The position numbers and the translations under genes were made by a program. Below the pieces are notes generated by a model, which was given only the letters and a program-made list of their open reading frames with translations, searched no databases and was not told where the DNA came from. Shown here in pieces: positions 1,941 to 38,620 of a stretch of 43,029 nt of DNA (within the stretch, counting starts at the first letter, position 1; each line of letters begins with the position of its first letter). Location of the stretch: positions 1 to 43,029 of the IMG/VR virus record IMGVR_UViG_3300042544_002266, one strand, 5' to 3'. This stretch comes from a virus.

Positions 1941-1948
1941 TATTTATA
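1941..1948 (+). promoter_or_regulatory. TATTTATA motif (putative late promoter) for the envelope cassette
   Basis: TATTTATA lies 5 bases before the ATG at 1954 and directly after a terminator. The same motif precedes many virion genes here. Transcription would start at or very near the start codon. Confidence 0.6.
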
Positions 1949-1953
1949 GGTAT

Positions 1954-2196
1954 ATGAGTTACAAAGTATTAGATGTCCCACAAAGTTTAAATTGTCAACA
2001 TTGTGTTCCTTGTATGAGAATTAGACTAATGGAAATGGGGTTTATCGAAGGTCAAGAAATTGAAATTGAAAATAAACGAATGGGTCTTTATATTGTTCAT
2101 ATGTTATCAGATAACGGTACTGTTAGTCAAACATTTGCATTAAGACCCGAAGAATTAGGTAGAATATGTTTAAAAGAAAATGATGAAAATATATAA
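1954..2196 (+). CDS. FeoA-like small protein with a CxxCxxC cluster
   Basis: This is an 80-residue protein resembling the FeoA/SH3-like fold. Residues about 21-37 read R-I-R-L-M-E-M-G-F-I-E-G-Q-E-I-E-I, the classic FeoA turn ('rL..mGl.pG..v.v'). It is followed by beta-strand-like segments and a C-terminal 'alRpeELgrI' ending. FeoA normally supports the ferrous-iron transporter FeoB in the cytoplasm. Odd here are three N-terminal cysteines (C14, C17, C20) plus C72, which could bind metal. It heads a packed five-gene operon, overlapping the PspC gene by 17 bases. No FeoB is in the window, so an iron-transport role is unproven; a stand-alone regulatory or adaptor role is equally possible. Confidence 0.65.
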   Translation: MSYKVLDVPQSLNCQHCVPCMRIRLMEMGFIEGQEIEIENKRMGLYIVHMLSDNGTVSQTFALRPEELGRICLKENDENI

Positions 2197-2362
2197 TAGA
2201 AAAAAAGACAATAAAAAAATATTCGGGGTTTGTGGTGGATTAGGTGAGTTTACAAACACAGACCCAACAATATGGAGATTACTTTTTGTTGGGTTATTTT
2301 TTACACCATTCCCGATTGGTATAATGTACATAATAACAACCTTAATAACCAATTCAAAATGA
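2180..2362 (+). CDS. PspC-domain membrane protein
   Basis: This 60-residue protein is almost exactly one PspC domain. It has a basic N-terminus, the signature F-G-V-C-G-G-L-G-E-F near residues 15-24, the 'tDPTIWRLLFV' segment, and a hydrophobic hairpin with a Pro-Ile-Gly turn before a final membrane helix. PspC proteins sit in the inner membrane and take part in the phage-shock envelope stress response in bacteria. In this phage it lies between a FeoA-like gene (17-base overlap) and a secreted outer-membrane-like gene (ATGA overlap), so the three are translationally coupled. A second ATG follows immediately at 2183. It may blunt or sense membrane stress late in infection; that role is inference. 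Confidence 0.8.
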   Translation: MMKIYNRKKDNKKIFGVCGGLGEFTNTDPTIWRLLFVGLFFTPFPIGIMYIITTLITNSK

Positions 2363-3189
2363 AAAACGTATTATTTTTATTAATGTTAATCCCAACACTA
2401 ACTTTTTCACAAGTTAGTAATTGGAGAAGTAATCCACCACAACAAAGAGTGGAAACCCCAAGAATTCAAACATCACCAACACCACAACGAAATGAGGTAA
2501 GTAGTTGGAGAAACGAAACACCGAGAGAGTATAACAGACCCCAACCAAATAGAGGTCGTTCTAATGTTATTATTAGAGACCCATATTGGAACAATTGGGG
2601 ATGGGGATGGAATAGATGGGATATGTGGGGAGCACCTGGATTTGGGTGGAATTATTGGTCACCAAGTTGGTATTTCAATGATTGGGGATATAGACAACCT
2701 GCAAGAATATATGTTTATGGTAATGGAAAACAAGACACAATTAGAGGTAAAAAACCTGTGATTAGTTTTGGTATTCAGAGAACAACTGACAAACAAATCG
2801 GTGGGTTCTTCACCATTGGTAATAAAGGATATCTTATTACCGAATACAATGCAAGTATTGAAAGAGATAAATCAACATTTTTTCCGTTTGGAAACATAAC
2901 CCAAGTTGATTTTCCGTTGGTTAATGATTTGGTTCAGAGAAATAGTTTTTACATTGGTGCAGGTAAGAGAATCAAAAGAACCGGTATTCATTTTATGGTT
3001 GGTACTGTAAGTGAAGATGTGAAATGGAGAGGTAGAGATGATATTGGTTATATCACCTTCCCGAAATATTTGGATAGGTTTACCACAATTAAAATAGGTA
3101 TGTTACACGATTATAAAAACTTCACATTAAAAATGGATTATGACCCGATAATCAGTAATGCCACATTTGGTTTAGGGGTTAATTTTTAA
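2359..3189 (+). CDS. Secreted outer-membrane beta-barrel-like protein, Trp/Gly-rich N-terminal part
   Basis: The ATG at 2359 overlaps the PspC stop codon (ATGA) and gives a good signal peptide ending in T-F-S-Q, so I prefer it to longer readings. The mature protein starts with two copies of a V-S-(N/S)-W-R element in a Pro/Arg/Gln-rich stretch, then a region very rich in Trp, Gly and Asn (about residues 75-115). The last roughly 140 residues look like alternating beta strands and end in G-L-G-V-N-F, a terminal aromatic typical of outer-membrane barrels. The family is not recognised. It probably changes the host surface, for example to block superinfection, but this is inferred from location and context. 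Confidence 0.65.
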   Translation: MKNVLFLLMLIPTLTFSQVSNWRSNPPQQRVETPRIQTSPTPQRNEVSSWRNETPREYNRPQPNRGRSNVIIRDPYWNNWGWGWNRWDMWGAPGFGWNYWSPSWYFNDWGYRQPARIYVYGNGKQDTIRGKKPVISFGIQRTTDKQIGGFFTIGNKGYLITEYNASIERDKSTFFPFGNITQVDFPLVNDLVQRNSFYIGAGKRIKRTGIHFMVGTVSEDVKWRGRDDIGYITFPKYLDRFTTIKIGMLHDYKNFTLKMDYDPIISNATFGLGVNF

Positions 3190-3198
3190 AATATTGTT

Positions 3199-3954
3199 AT
3201 GTTAGATTTTGATTTAAAAATATATGAAATGAAAGATGTTTTGGCAACTGAAGATTATAATGAGTTGTCAGAACTTGTCGGTGATTTTAAAATAGACTTA
3301 AATAAAATAATCTCATCTTTAGGTTTTTTACAATGGTCTAAAAAAATACAGGATGCAATGAAAAATAAACATCCTGAAGAATTTGAAAGAATCGTAACAA
3401 ATAATCAATTAACATATGAAGACTTTAAATTGCTTGCGGTGATTAATGATGAAGTTGGGTTAAACATAAGCGATAGAACGTTATTTCATACAGACTATGA
3501 TTATTTTAATTTTTTATTAACACATAGGGATGATGAATTAATGAGTAGTAGACTTATAAAACTTTATGATAAAGCATTTAGATTTATTTTAGAAGACTTA
3601 TTTAAAAAAGAAGTAATTTTTAAAGATGTCTTATTCGGTCATTTTAATGTGTACCCAAAAGATTCGTTTATTGTTAACCATACCGATGGACCAACGGCAC
3701 ACAATAGATATTTCACAATATTATTTTTTCTGAATAAAGGTAGAAAATATGAGGATGGTTCATTGTTAAGAGTGTACAAAGAAAATGAGGTAATTGAATT
3801 TATTCCTGATTTTAATAAAATAATTTTACTTGACCATATGAAGTATAATTACGAACACGAGGTAACTAAAAACTTATCTGATGATGTTCGTTATTCTTTA
3901 TACACACCATTTAGTATTGATGATTATAATAACAGGTTAAAACAAGACACATAA
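3199..3954 (+). CDS. 2-oxoglutarate/Fe(II) oxygenase-like protein (prolyl-hydroxylase type)
   Basis: The C-terminal half of this 251-residue protein matches the double-stranded beta-helix fold of 2OG-Fe(II) dioxygenases. A Fe-binding H-x-D is at H161/D163 (N-H-T-D-G), the distal His at H220 (Y-E-H-E-V), and a 2OG-binding Arg at R231, with typical strand spacing and an 'ilfFLNkg..yedGsLlr' middle segment. These enzymes couple oxidation of 2-oxoglutarate to hydroxylation of a protein, sugar or small molecule. The N-terminal 130 residues are helical and not recognised. It lies between two secreted outer-membrane-like genes, so it could modify a product of the same operon, but it has no signal peptide and would act in the cytoplasm. 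The substrate is unknown. Confidence 0.75.
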   Translation: MLDFDLKIYEMKDVLATEDYNELSELVGDFKIDLNKIISSLGFLQWSKKIQDAMKNKHPEEFERIVTNNQLTYEDFKLLAVINDEVGLNISDRTLFHTDYDYFNFLLTHRDDELMSSRLIKLYDKAFRFILEDLFKKEVIFKDVLFGHFNVYPKDSFIVNHTDGPTAHNRYFTILFFLNKGRKYEDGSLLRVYKENEVIEFIPDFNKIILLDHMKYNYEHEVTKNLSDDVRYSLYTPFSIDDYNNRLKQDT

Positions 3955-3958
3955 TTTT

Positions 3959-5383
3959 TTGAAAAATATAATAAAACCATTTTTAATATTATTTTTTATT
4001 TTCATTTCAAGTGAAGTGATTGGTCAAACTTATACTCAAACATTTATTGACAAATGTACGGGTGAAAAAAAGGTCGCAACCACGACAATGATAAGTGGTT
4101 ATGCAACAGTATCATTTTACAACCAAATTAGAACATTCAGCCCGATGGAAGTTCAGACCGGAGTAGTACAAACTTGGTTAGTTACCACAAAGGCAACGTA
4201 TGAAGCACTTACTTGTCCTGTAATTAATAATCCCGTCGTTCAACAAGCGGTAGCAAATGCTGCAACACAAGCGGCAGCATCTGCTGCAAGTTCTGCTGCG
4301 GCATCTGCCGCGAGTTCGGCAGCATCCTCATCTGCAAGTTCCGCAGCTAGTAGTAGTGCAAGTTCCGCAGCAGCAAGTTCCGCAGCATCAACACCTCCAC
4401 CTACAACACCTCCACCAACAAGTAGTAGTTCATCAACTCCACCACCTGCAAGTAGTGGAAGTTCGTCATCATCTGGCGGTTCGTCATCAAGTAGTAGTTC
4501 ATCGTCATCTTCGGAAAGTAAAACAGAAACAAAGACTGAAACTAAATCTGAAACAAAATCAGAAAGTAAGAGTGAATCAAAATCTGAAAGTAAGAGTGAG
4601 GAAAAGAAAGAAGAAACTAAATCTGAATCTAAAGAAGAAAAGAAAGAAGAATCTAAATCTGAGGAAAAGAAAGAAGAGAAGAAAGAAGAAAAAAAGGAGG
4701 AAAAGAAAAAAGAAAAGGTTGCAGCATCAAATCCGATGTTGTTATCTTCGGATTTATCAACGATTGAATCTCCTGACGGTAGATGGTTACAATCGGCAAC
4801 AATCGGTGTGTCTAAATCATCATTAATGGGGGACAAGAGTTATTCCGCAAACGCAGTTATTATGAGTGATTTAAAAACATTTATAGTGAGTGCCGGTTTT
4901 ACTAAAATGGATTTTTCAAATGGTAAATTAAATGCCATACACTCATACTCATCGGCATTTGCGTACTTGAATGGTAACTATATGAATCTATTAGGTTACA
5001 CATACATAAAACCGACATTGAAGAAGGGGGTATTTGGTTATAATGTTGGTCTAATTAACTTATTACTTAACAATGGTGAAAAGGGAGGATATGACCATAA
5101 TATGTCAACATCAGTAGTTGCTTTTTGGACTAAACCATTTCAGTATAGTAAAAAATTAAGTATTTCGCCACAGATATTCACAATGTTCGCACCCATATCA
5201 TATAACAGTGAAGCTAAGACCACAACAGTTAATAGACATATGGGATTCTTATTAGGGTCTTCGTTTGATTATAAATTAAGTAAACGATTTGGTCTTAGTT
5301 TGAACTATAAATTAAGCGGTAATACCGCACCAGGGTCACCATTCTTGAGTAATTTCTTGATTGGTAGTAGAATGATATTATAA
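3959..5383 (+). CDS. Secreted protein with Ala/Ser, Pro/Ser and Lys/Glu/Ser low-complexity spacer and C-terminal barrel-like domain
   Basis: This 474-residue protein begins with a TTG start (3959); no ATG is available before the obvious signal peptide ending in V-I-G-Q. A short N-terminal domain with two Cys (res. 33, 86) is followed by an Ala/Ser run (about 95-144), Pro/Ser and poly-Ser blocks (145-184) and a highly charged S-E/K repeat region (185-252). The last about 215 residues look like paired beta strands ending in a hydrophobic I-L, as in outer-membrane proteins. The layout suggests a small periplasmic or surface head held on a long flexible tether. It is the last gene of the envelope cassette. 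I do not recognise the family; host-surface modification is a guess. Confidence 0.7.
   Translation: MKNIIKPFLILFFIFISSEVIGQTYTQTFIDKCTGEKKVATTTMISGYATVSFYNQIRTFSPMEVQTGVVQTWLVTTKATYEALTCPVINNPVVQQAVANAATQAAASAASSAAASAASSAASSSASSAASSSASSAAASSAASTPPPTTPPPTSSSSSTPPPASSGSSSSSGGSSSSSSSSSSSESKTETKTETKSETKSESKSESKSESKSEEKKEETKSESKEEKKEESKSEEKKEEKKEEKKEEKKKEKVAASNPMLLSSDLSTIESPDGRWLQSATIGVSKSSLMGDKSYSANAVIMSDLKTFIVSAGFTKMDFSNGKLNAIHSYSSAFAYLNGNYMNLLGYTYIKPTLKKGVFGYNVGLINLLLNNGEKGGYDHNMSTSVVAFWTKPFQYSKKLSISPQIFTMFAPISYNSEAKTTTVNRHMGFLLGSSFDYKLSKRFGLSLNYKLSGNTAPGSPFLSNFLIGSRMIL
4260..4720 (+). repeat. Low-complexity coding repeats (Ala/Ser, Ser, Lys/Glu/Ser codons)
   Basis: This stretch consists of short tandem codon repeats such as GCAAGTTCC/GCATCT, AGTAGT and GAAAAGAAAGAA. 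It encodes the flexible part of the preceding secreted protein. Such DNA is prone to length changes by slippage, so size variation between related phages is expected. Confidence 0.85.
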
Positions 5384-6708: not shown

Positions 6709-8727
6709 TTACAATATTTTTTTTGTAATTGTTAATTTTTCGTCTTTATATTTTATAGTCACTCCCGTATTTTCAACAATATTTCCACGTAAAATCTCCT
6801 CACTTAAAAAATCTTCGCAGAGATTTTGAATGATTCTTTTTATTGGTCGTGCACCATATTGTTCCTCTGAATTAAGTTCGAAAATTCTATTCACAACAGA
6901 TTTATCAAACACAATTTTATAGTTCTTTTCTTTCAATCGGTCATTTAATCTACCTAATTCGATATTGATGATTTTTTTCAACGTCTCATCGTTTAATGGG
7001 TTGAAGGTTATAATGTCATCAATACGATTCAAAAATTCAGGATTGAATTGTTGTTTTAGTGCTTTCTGAATGATTGACTTTTTAACTTCGGCTTTTTGTG
7101 TTTCTTTACTGTTCGTAGCAAAACCCATACCATCACCAAACTCCATAACTTTTTTTGCACCTACGTTAGAAGTCATTATGATTAGTGTATTGGTGAAGTT
7201 AACTTTTCGACCAAAGGAATCCGTTAAATGACCCTCATCAAGTATTTGTAATAGAATATTGAACACATCTTTATGTGCCTTTTCAATTTCATCAAAAAGG
7301 ATTACCGAAAATGGATTGTTCTTAACTTTTTCAGTTAATTGACCTCCTTCATCATACCCAACATAACCCGGAGGAGAACCGATTAATCTTGATACGTTGT
7401 GTTTTTCCATAAACTCACTCATATCAACGCGAATAATTTTATTAGGGTCACCAAATAAAATATCTGCAAGTGATTTAGCTAAAAATGTTTTACCAACACC
7501 GGTGGAACCTAAAAAGATAAATGAACCAATTGGTTTATTTGTGTCTTTAATCCCAACTCTATTTCTGCGAATTGATTTAGAAATAATACTAATAGCGTCG
7601 TCCTGACCAATAACTTTTGAAGATAATAGACCCTCTAAACTCAGTAGTTTTTCAGTCTCTTTAGAATCTAACTTACTGATTGGTACTCCAGTCATATTTG
7701 AAACGATTTCATACACATCCTCAACCGACACAGGAGTCTTATTATTTTTTTGATTTGATGTCCACTTTTCTTTCTCTTCGTCAAGTTTCTTTAGAATCTT
7801 TCTTTCCTCATCTCTTAATTTTGCTGCCTGTTCATAGTTTTGACTTTTGACAACCTGAACTTTCTTTTCTTTAAGTTCCTCCGCTGACTTTTTCAAAGAC
7901 TCAATAATTTCAGGAACCTTGCCTGATATTTTTTTATCTGAACCTAATTCATCTAAAATGTCAATTGCCTTATCAGGAAATTGTCTGTCAGTAATGTAAC
8001 GAGACGCCAAAGTTGTGATAGTTTCAACTACGTTATCTTGATACTGAACTTTATGGAAATCTTCATATGATGACTTTAAATTCTGAAGTATCTCAACTGT
8101 CTCTTCTTGAGTCGGTTCTTTCAAAACAATTTTTTGGAATCTTCTAACTAACGCACCATCCTTTTCAATATGTTTTTTAAACTCATCGAATGTGGTTGCT
8201 CCGATACATTGCATTTCACCTCTTGCAAGTGCCGGTTTTAAAATATTAGCAGCATCCATAGCACCACTAGCATTACCTGCACCAACCATAGTGTGTAATT
8301 CGTCGATAAACACAATCACATTTGGATTTTCTTGAAGTTCGTTAAGAATTGCTTTGATTCTCTCTTCAAATTGTCCTCTATACTTAGTTCCTGCAACAAG
8401 TGATGTTAAATCTAACGACACTAATCTTTTATCTAACAAACTACTTGGACAATTACCCTTACTGATTTGTAATGCCAATTTTTCTACAAGTGCAGATTTA
8501 CCTACACCCGCATCACCAACAATCACCACATTATTCTTTTTCTTACGAGAAAGAATTTGTGTGATTCTTTTTACTTCCTTTTCTCTCCCAACAACAGGGT
8601 CTATTTTTCCTTCTTCTGCAAGTTTTATCAAATCCCTTGAGAAATTATCAAGAATAGGTGTTGTTGAATTTGTTCTTTTGTTTTTTTGTACGGGCTTCGA
8701 ACCCTCTTCGAAAAAATCTACAGACAT
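6709..8727 (-). CDS. ClpC-like AAA+ protein unfoldase lacking the Clp N-domain
   Basis: This 672-residue protein has two AAA+ modules. The first has Walker A GDAGVGKS (71-78), Walker B V-I-V-F-I-D-E (137-143) and a pore loop K-Y-R-G (115-118). The second has GSTGVGKT (407-414), V-I-L-F-D-E (475-480) and pore loop G-Y-V-G (454-457). A UVR-like helical segment between them (about 283-320) marks it as ClpC rather than ClpB. M-G-F at 534-536 sits where ClpC carries its ClpP-docking loop. Cellular ClpC is about 810-850 residues; here the N-terminal Clp_N repeats are replaced by about 30 residues. It probably unfolds proteins, perhaps for the host ClpP; no phage ClpP is in the window. It is divergent from the Hsp20 gene. 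Confidence 0.92.
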
Positions 8728-8883: not shown

Positions 8884-9252
8884 ATGATAACATTATTTAA
8901 AGACCCATTTTTCCAAGGTTTCGAAAGTGTGTTCGAACCATCAAAATTCCTAAAAACTCCTGAAACTCGTGTTCGTAAAACTGAAACTGAATACGTTGTT
9001 TTATTAAGTGTTCCCGGCTTGACTAAAGATGATTTAAAAATCTCCACCAAAGAAGGAATACTTAAGATTTCGTTTGAGAAAGAGGAGAGTGACGATAATC
9101 ACTACTTTACCGGTAGTTTCGTTAAATCATATAACATTCCTGACGATGTAAAAGAAAAGGATATTGTCGGTAAGGTTGAGAATGGTATTCTCGAATTAAC
9201 ATTACCAATCGACAAGAAAAAATCACTTGAACGTCTAATCTCCCTTAATTAA
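8884..9252 (+). CDS. Small heat-shock protein (Hsp20/alpha-crystallin)
   Basis: This 122-residue protein is a single alpha-crystallin domain. Motifs seen are V-P-G-L-T-K-D-D-L-K-I (43-53), the loop 'f.KsynIPddVke.di.gkveNGiLeltlP' and the conserved G-I-L-E-L-T-L-P (101-108). Hsp20 proteins hold unfolding proteins as ATP-independent chaperones and pass them to Hsp70 or disaggregases. The N-terminal arm is short (about 25 residues) and the C-terminal I-x-I-type tail is replaced by L-I-S-L. It lies head-to-head with the ClpC-like gene across 156 bases, so the two probably form one phage proteostasis unit. A strong terminator follows it. Confidence 0.93.
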   Translation: MITLFKDPFFQGFESVFEPSKFLKTPETRVRKTETEYVVLLSVPGLTKDDLKISTKEGILKISFEKEESDDNHYFTGSFVKSYNIPDDVKEKDIVGKVENGILELTLPIDKKKSLERLISLN

Positions 9253-38016: not shown

Positions 38017-38610
38017 TTACTTGGACTTATTTACTCCAGTAATTTTTCCTTTAAAGATAGAATCCCCAACCTTTAACACAAGATTCTCATTAATTGATTG
38101 TGTTTGTTGAGCCGTTAGAATTTGACTTAGTTTTTCATCCATCACCTTACGAACAGTATTTTCAATCAAAGTAGCTAACGCATTCATATTCACACCACTA
38201 TTTCCTGTTGGGGCTGTTTGTGTTTGTTTTTTAGGTGCTGATTGTTTAGATTGAATCCCTTCTTGTTCCATTAAACGTTTGGCCCCTTTTACAAAATCCA
38301 TATCTAAACTATCATTCAAAGATATTTGAGGTATTGGGTTTTCTCTCATAGCCTTTTTAATTGCTTCAGGTAATTTCGATTGTTCAATCTTATCAAGACT
38401 TGGAGTGCCGACAGGTCTTGTATTAACAACTGGTTGTTGATATTCTTCAGAAATGTATCCGGTATCTTCAGAAGGTGCCATTAATCTACTCTCATCGATA
38501 TTACCCTTCTCGTAGTTGCCCGTATCAACTTTATTCATTACTTTTTTAGCTTGAACTAATTTTGACATTAGGTCATTCGCCGATATTGGTCCGTTATTTA
38601 ATTTTGACAT
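38017..38610 (-). CDS. Virion-associated protein, 197 aa (family unknown)
   Basis: I do not recognise this 197-residue protein. It is helical and polar, with a Lys/Gln-rich section (K-Q-S-A-P-K-K-Q-T-Q) in the middle and a C-terminal helix with V-N-M-N-A-L-A-T-L-I-E-N-T-V-R-K-V-M-D-E-K-L. It has the motif TATTTATA only 2 bases before the ATG, the closest spacing in the window. It follows the WYL-like gene and precedes a glycosyltransferase. Late structural protein by context. Confidence 0.6.
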   Translation of the reverse strand: MSKLNNGPISANDLMSKLVQAKKVMNKVDTGNYEKGNIDESRLMAPSEDTGYISEEYQQPVVNTRPVGTPSLDKIEQSKLPEAIKKAMRENPIPQISLNDSLDMDFVKGAKRLMEQEGIQSKQSAPKKQTQTAPTGNSGVNMNALATLIENTVRKVMDEKLSQILTAQQTQSINENLVLKVGDSIFKGKITGVNKSK

Positions 38611-38612
38611 AC

Positions 38613-38620
38613 TATAAATA
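38613..38620 (-). promoter_or_regulatory. TATTTATA motif, minus strand
   Basis: ATATTTATA ends 2 bases before the ATG at 38610 on the minus strand, so any mRNA would start at the ATG itself or inside the first codons. Confidence 0.6.

Follow-up and report, generated by a model that had tools for sequence, protein, structure and literature searches.

Why should one viral genome carry, in a single row, genes for a FeoA-like protein, a lone PspC domain, a 2-oxoglutarate (2OG)-Fe(II) oxygenase and two exported proteins, OM1 and OM2? The question was raised by IMG/VR virus record IMGVR_UViG_3300042544_002266, positions 1 to 43,029 (hereafter the window, meaning the whole stretch of 43,029 bases), which encodes a terminase, a portal and a major capsid protein of T4 type. 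By major capsid protein, Flavobacterium phage immuto and Rhodothermus phage RM378 are among its nearest named relatives, which makes a Bacteroidota-type host likely. An initial annotation made from the letters alone had described the five genes as an envelope-remodelling cassette. When relatives were compared, the core of the locus was a pair of genes, OM2 and a CsgG-like gene just upstream of the five, and FeoA, PspC and the 2OG oxygenase were optional extras. FeoA and PspC, most of whose loci lie in one slot while others lie elsewhere, are thus mobile accessory genes that strongly favour this place; they form no obligate unit, yet are not random cargo either. We tentatively regard this slot as part of a late envelope-remodelling module of T4-like Bacteroidota phages.

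Layout of the locus

The five open reading frames were real and correctly placed, all on the + strand, as judged from the open reading frame list and, for three of them, Pfam. The left boundary of the initial annotation, 1941, is the first base of the TATTTATA motif described below; it left out 1162-1884, the gene most tightly tied to the set and the constant partner of OM2.

1162-1884, + strand: core gene, exported protein probably of the CsgG superfamily (AlphaFold2 model, Foldseek and VIA matches)
1954-2196, + strand: FeoA-like protein (Pfam FeoA, 24.8 bits; cut-off 23)
2180- or 2183-2362, + strand: single-domain PspC protein (Pfam PspC, 59.3 bits; cut-off 25)
2359-3189, + strand: OM1, exported protein, predicted barrel (AlphaFold2 model, structure matches, C-terminal Phe)
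3199-3954, + strand: 2OG-Fe(II) oxygenase, optional (Pfam 2OG-FeII_Oxy_3, PF13640, 32.2 bits; cut-off 27)
3959-5383, + strand: OM2, exported protein with a TTG start (signal peptide; accompanies the CsgG-like gene in 97 of 100 loci)

The overlap between FeoA and PspC is 17 bases when counted from the ATG at 2180 and 14 bases from the ATG at 2183. The latter start agreed with the relatives in a 14-member alignment and is probably the one used. PspC and OM1 overlap by ATGA (2359-2362), and this junction was identical in 16 of 16 loci, the window counted.

Gene order across relatives

A sequence scan with OM1 yielded 31 viral loci. The scan with the 1162-1884 protein returned 474 viral stretches encoding a CsgG-like protein, 80 of which were kept. 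Gene order was compared in 100 loci holding the CsgG-like gene, among which many contigs were near-duplicates (79 distinct sequences). When the FeoA-like protein or the 2OG oxygenase was used as a single-sequence query, no relatives were found; the FeoA alignment, by contrast, recovered 39 viral loci, and the PspC alignment gave 33. A PHROGs search of the module genes returned no significant family. Two contigs binned as Flavobacterium and Bacteroidetes metagenome-assembled genomes (L130, L131) bore the phage module and resembled phage contigs.

The CsgG-like gene and OM2 formed a near-universal pair (97/100). Downstream of the CsgG-like gene, OM1-OM2 was the commonest layout (37/100), followed by OM2 alone (34/100); FeoA-PspC-OM1-OM2 was present in 11 loci, the order OM2-OM1 in 7, and the complete five-gene set, in the window's order, in 4 (the window, L054, L092 and L094). 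Rarer layouts were FeoA-OM1-OM2 (2 loci), PspC-OM1-OM2 (1) and FeoA-OM2 (1), and none of the five genes was found in 3 loci, of which two lay close to the end of a contig. FeoA and PspC shared one slot downstream of the CsgG-like gene and the 2OG oxygenase occupied another, always between OM1 and OM2; the order never varied. FeoA lay directly upstream of the CsgG-like gene in two loci (L069, L097). OM1 homologues numbered 78 in 77 loci.

The co-occurrence of FeoA and PspC was strong, with FeoA present in 10 of the 11 distinct rows that bore PspC (79 rows; Fisher P = 7e-9, uncorrected for kinship). FeoA adjoined the CsgG-like gene in 31 of its 39 loci. PspC was in the slot in 17 of 33 loci, 16 of these with FeoA. 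The initial annotation had held that finding the genes apart elsewhere would count against a set, and such separation was partly found, 16 of 33 PspC loci and 8 of 39 FeoA loci being outside the slot or at a contig edge. PspC stood directly 3' of a lysis gene in two contigs, an endolysin in L003 (C-terminus by profile, identity by eye) and an amidase-like gene in L002 (by eye).

A tree of the CsgG-like gene gave 9 changes of state for FeoA, 6 for PspC, 3 for 2OG and 12 for OM1; it was built from one gene by a quick method, and recombination may inflate these counts. Thus the proposed functional set survived as an ordered, recurring, late-type operon but not as an obligate unit: the five-gene order recurs, yet FeoA, PspC and 2OG were repeatedly gained and lost. 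The relatives found with OM1 had suggested random cargo unique to the window, which was ruled out by the slot in relatives found with the CsgG-like protein.

Other genes (clusters 41, 30, 45 and 72) also occupied the slot. In L020:4240-6714 it held a gene for a TonB-receptor-like protein of the outer membrane, 825 aa long (OMP_b-brl_3, 89.9 bits; Plug, 35.1 bits), and this cluster 41 was also present in L031-L033, L075, L083, L084, L105 and L107.

The CsgG-fold core protein

The AlphaFold2 model of the 1162-1884 protein had a mean predicted local distance difference test score (pLDDT) of 77.8 and a predicted template modelling score (pTM) of 0.71. When the model was searched with Foldseek, the top 16 chains were all CsgG (E 1.9e-7). 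VIA aligned 162 residues of it with CsgG at Z 12.3 and a root-mean-square deviation of 3.4 Å, a Z about 3 higher than for PelC (Z 9.5); PelBC followed at 8.9 and TraT, a surface-exclusion lipoprotein, at 7.7. Among predicted viral proteins, the best structural match was a protein named CsgG.

No direct Pfam match was obtained for the sequence, CsgG (PF03783) included. Profile comparison with CsgG (hhalign) aligned most of both proteins at a score that was not significant, and a PDB profile search with the CsgG-like alignment gave no match. A homologue from Ignavibacteriales, on a contig with chromosomal neighbours and 38% identical, scored 28.6 bits against Pfam CsgG (cut-off 20.8), which suggests, by transitivity, that the phage protein is related to CsgG in sequence as well. 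This homologue has a lipobox and lies near a CHASE2-cyclase gene; the stretch L132:8001-14037 contains both, along with one more related gene and the gene for a protein of 825 aa. The csgG loci of pelagiphages likewise finish with a cyclase gene.

The signal peptides of the phage CsgG-like proteins end in AQ, GQ or SQ, with no lipoprotein Cys at +1, which is present in the chromosomal homologue and in most reference CsgGs. The two hairpin segments, judged from sequence only, were 24 and 26 residues long (27 and 33 in CsgG), with a charged fraction of 0.35 and 0.26 (0.19 and 0.23 in CsgG) and a hydrophobic fraction of 0.39 and 0.43 (0.58 and 0.51 in CsgG). Among the window genes scanned and the scanned neighbours in L042 and L020, where some neighbours were left unscanned, no csgE, csgF, csgA or csgB was recognised. 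The protein is therefore probably a periplasmic member of the CsgG superfamily that does not form a curli channel or pore, because it has no lipobox and its hairpins are short, with more charged and fewer hydrophobic residues than in CsgG.

The exported proteins OM1 and OM2

OM1 consists of a signal peptide, a disordered N-terminal part rich in Trp, Pro and Arg that carries two invariant S-x-W-R motifs, and a barrel domain (residues 131-276). The AlphaFold2 model had eight strands in residues 134-275, with a barrel pLDDT of about 83-97, and the barrel matched Ail (Z 14.2) and OmpX (Z 13.8) in VIA. OM1 is thus a predicted OmpX/Ail-like eight-stranded barrel by fold, not by sequence kinship.

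In OM2 a signal peptide is followed by a conserved N-terminal domain, a linker rich first in Ala/Ser and then in Ser/Lys/Glu, and a conserved C-terminal region, which is suspected to be a barrel. No fold or family relative was found for it in Pfam or PDB beyond linker composition; its matches there were rejected as kinship, since they look like artefacts of that composition. Profile comparison of OM1 with OM2 showed them to be unrelated beyond their signal peptides, and a hydrophobic-alternation test for barrels was dropped because OM1, its positive control, failed. Of the two barrel-like exported proteins initially proposed, OM1 fits that description as a prediction, whereas OM2 is exported but has no fold or family match. 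In immuto, gp18 is an OM2 homologue that adjoins gp17 with a one-base overlap.

The accessory genes

All 14 members of the FeoA-like family matched Pfam FeoA. In the window protein the match begins at profile position 24, and the missing N-terminal part is replaced by C-x2-C-x-P-C, invariant in 14 distinct homologues, so the extra Cys residues noticed initially were real. FeoB_N was found in 0 of 13 related viral records, several of them possibly fragments; the FeoA-like protein would therefore act on the host or elsewhere, and host FeoB is a possible partner. The phage PspC domain was nearly full-length. The 2OG oxygenase retained an intact HxD...H...R in the window, L054 and L092, as read from the sequences.

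Nonsynonymous divergence (dN) was below synonymous divergence (dS) in all pairwise comparisons, with dS near saturation; the signal was strongest in the CsgG-like gene and weakest in OM1 and 2OG.

Transcription signals

Two elements lie between the CsgG-like gene and FeoA:

1912-1937, + strand: intrinsic terminator, AAAGGAGG-ACGAAAGA-CCTCCTTT followed by a T run, between the end of the CsgG-like gene (1884) and the FeoA start (1954)
1941-1948, + strand: TATTTATA motif 6 nucleotides before the FeoA ATG, probably the late promoter of the five genes

A similar hairpin with a T run and TATTTATA was present 3' of the CsgG-like gene in about 23 distinct relatives, whichever gene came next. In the window TATTTATA occurred 17 times (8.5 expected), and 10 of the 17 copies preceded a gene start, on its coding strand, by at most 60 nucleotides; among other AT-only 8-mers of equal composition the background rate was 7% (P = 3e-8). 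Copies upstream of gene starts were at 1941, 9287, 10417, 14312, 16134, 19444, 20205, 41503 and 42942 on the + strand and at 38613 and 41478 on the - strand. The motif lies 4 nucleotides before the ATG of both terminase and portal, and the spacing is merely 3-6 nucleotides for FeoA, terminase, portal, 41516 and 38017-38610; the mRNAs starting there may be near-leaderless.

The T4 late promoter, TATAAATA, was not the enriched form. The form enriched on the coding strand of the window was its reverse complement, TATTTATA (10/17 so placed, versus 3/17 for the TATAAATA-type form). From its position, TATTTATA is the probable late promoter of the window phage. With the terminator and TATTTATA conserved, and TATTTATA also abutting the terminase and portal starts, the five genes look like one late transcript.

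Proposed role and alternatives

The initial view that the genes point to the envelope held. In the role that we tentatively favour, the slot is an accessory site within a late lysis/remodelling module of T4-like Bacteroidota phages. Its core pair, by sequence and structure prediction, is the exported CsgG-fold protein and OM2 with its long charged linker. The slot between them takes OM1 and, in a subset, FeoA, PspC and 2OG in fixed order behind the late-promoter-like motif. The CsgG-fold protein might form a periplasmic ring or cap beneath the outer membrane in the manner of PelC, with OM2 as its partner; together they could make the outer membrane weaker or open it as lysis nears, or alter the surface of the infected cell. 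PspC, translationally coupled to OM1, would sit in the inner membrane and may shield it from misinserted outer-membrane or oligomeric proteins until lysis, by analogy with Yersinia, where PspBC is sufficient to counteract mislocalised secretin multimers (PMC5596341). The Cys-bearing FeoA could conceivably tune ferrous-iron uptake by the host or bind metal for the oxygenase, a step with little support. The gene order in relatives, the ATGA junction, the co-occurrence of FeoA and PspC, the CsgG fold, the OM1 barrel and the terminator with TATTTATA speak for such a module. So do a holin-like gene nearby, an endolysin beside the module in some relatives, the PspC genes 3' of a lysis gene in L003 and L002, and dN below dS in the FeoA, PspC and CsgG-like genes. 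For phage CsgG itself, lysis control, uptake or sibling capture was proposed by the authors who described the Melnitz and pelagiphage loci (PMC9004378, PMC7029224).

Several findings weigh against this role. Pore formation by the CsgG-like protein is doubtful, because lipobox and pore-type hairpins are absent, and OM2 has no fold match. A lone PspC without PspB may not act as the Yersinia proteins do. In other phages PspC adjoins thymidylate synthase-like and metK-like genes (metK-like by eye). The commonest arrangements contain no FeoA, PspC or 2OG, so a PspC guard is not obligatory.

In a rather unlikely alternative, the barrels and the CsgG-fold protein would change the cell surface late in infection and so keep other phages from adsorbing or injecting, the locus serving superinfection exclusion or surface change with FeoA, PspC and the oxygenase as modifiers of host state. 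OM1 does resemble the small surface barrels OmpX and Ail, the CsgG-like model also matches TraT, more weakly, a TonB-receptor-like phage barrel fills the slot of some relatives, C-type-lectin and cohesin-like exported proteins are encoded upstream, and avoidance of coinfection has been suggested for pelagimyophage islands (PMC7029224). However, the late-promoter-like motif suggests expression at a time when exclusion counts less, and holin-like and endolysin genes are close by in several relatives. Alternatively, the slot, flanked by two conserved genes, would be a hot spot of recombination and the accessories unrelated auxiliaries that landed there by chance, which we consider unlikely. The repeated state changes of FeoA, PspC and 2OG (9, 6 and 3), the occurrence of FeoA and PspC apart from the slot, and its use by clusters 41, 30, 45 and 72 agree with such loose cargo; the constant order, the 10/11 co-occurrence and the invariant ATGA junction with OM1 do not, although a single exchanged block with flanking homology would yield the same pattern.

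Improbable, in our judgement, is a role in export or display, with the CsgG-fold protein and OM2 secreting the phage's own upstream-encoded exported proteins (lectin/cohesin-like proteins and lipoproteins) in a type VIII- or PelBC-like manner. CsgG and PelC/PelBC were among the top structural matches, the upstream exported and lipoprotein genes are conserved, and curlin-like repeats also occur in pelagiphage csgF-csgG loci; on the other side, no CsgE, CsgF, CsgA or CsgB homologue was recognised among the scanned genes, the hairpins differ from those of CsgG, and the upstream proteins bear signal peptides of their own with which host systems could export them. The envelope-remodelling role also has a more far-reaching version, which we think unlikely: these phages would build their own late outer-membrane machine, a CsgG/PelC-like periplasmic ring with dedicated exported partners, to which some lineages would add a PspC guard, tied by translation to a barrel protein, and a new Cys-bearing type of FeoA, to keep the inner membrane energised during its construction. 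If true, machine and guard would amount to phage-encoded control of envelope stress for a timed opening of the outer membrane. If PspC does guard the cell, the gene set would be an example of a phage-borne antidote to envelope stress that the phages themselves provoke.

Relation to known systems

Phage CsgG loci are already published. In pelagimyophage HTVC008M and Methylophilales phage Melnitz, likewise T4-like myophages, a CsgG-family gene stands in an operon with genes for exported proteins (PMC7029224, PMC9004378). Their CsgG is 37-40% identical to that of E. coli, with a lipobox-like Cys and an adjacent csgF, whereas the window protein is far more divergent and has neither lipobox nor CsgF; its gene, unlike theirs, stands with OM2, OM1 and an optional FeoA-PspC-2OG slot.

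The PelC/PelBC system of exopolysaccharide export offers what may be a better working analogy than the curli channel. PelC forms a periplasmic ring paired with a separate outer-membrane barrel protein, and PelC and the window protein have a CsgG-like fold in common. The analogy is looser elsewhere: a tetratricopeptide repeat or barrel in OM2 is unproven, as is sequence kinship, and no polysaccharide genes were recognised nearby.

The phage PspC resembles the PspC of the phage shock (Psp) response in its nearly full-length domain; it differs in standing alone and in overlapping an outer-membrane barrel gene, with no PspA, PspB or PspF recognised nearby. Compared with FeoA of FeoAB, the phage type keeps the FeoA domain and has CxxCxPC for the N-terminal part, with no FeoB_N in the 13 viral records searched.

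The closest cultured counterpart is gp16-gp17-gp18 of the T4-like Flavobacterium phage vB_FspM_immuto, which has this core in overlapping genes, annotated as hypothetical, for a small membrane protein, a CsgG-like protein and an OM2-like protein; OM1, FeoA, PspC and 2OG are absent at that place. A search of the literature, mostly open-access, turned up no description of the combination as a phage system, in agreement with the initial annotation, and nothing on a divergent CsgG-fold family in Bacteroidota phages, on FeoA of the CxxCxPC type or on the coupling of a barrel gene to a phage PspC. The locus is the first link we found between phage-encoded CsgG-fold proteins and phage-encoded PspC. 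The module is widespread, and little is known of how large Bacteroidota phages open the outer membrane or control it; the cultured immuto makes deletion tests of the core possible.

Neighbouring genes

Two small membrane proteins are encoded directly upstream of the core:

626-901, + strand: small holin-like protein with two transmembrane segments (72 loci have homologues, which mostly precede the CsgG-like gene)
930-1157, + strand: small protein with a single transmembrane segment (in the gene orders, often between the holin-like and CsgG-like genes)

The immuto homologue of the holin-like gene is gp192, directly upstream of an annotated endolysin, and we infer a holin role for the 626-901 protein. 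An endolysin adjoined the module itself in L018, L023, L107 and L130.

Genes for exported proteins and lipoproteins were conserved upstream of the module. Large exported C-type lectin/cohesin-like proteins were encoded there in L042:179-4112 and L117 gp13-gp15, and the end of immuto gp15 resembled a type IX secretion sorting domain when read by eye. A ClpA/B/C-type AAA+ unfoldase (6709-8727, by eye) and an Hsp20-like chaperone (8884-9252) in the window were conserved beside the module in several relatives. A conserved small membrane protein (cluster 4, L042:6829-7449) had an acidic Asp/Gly-rich tail, DEDGDGVMDGLDFDGDGKID, resembling repeated Ca-binding loops.

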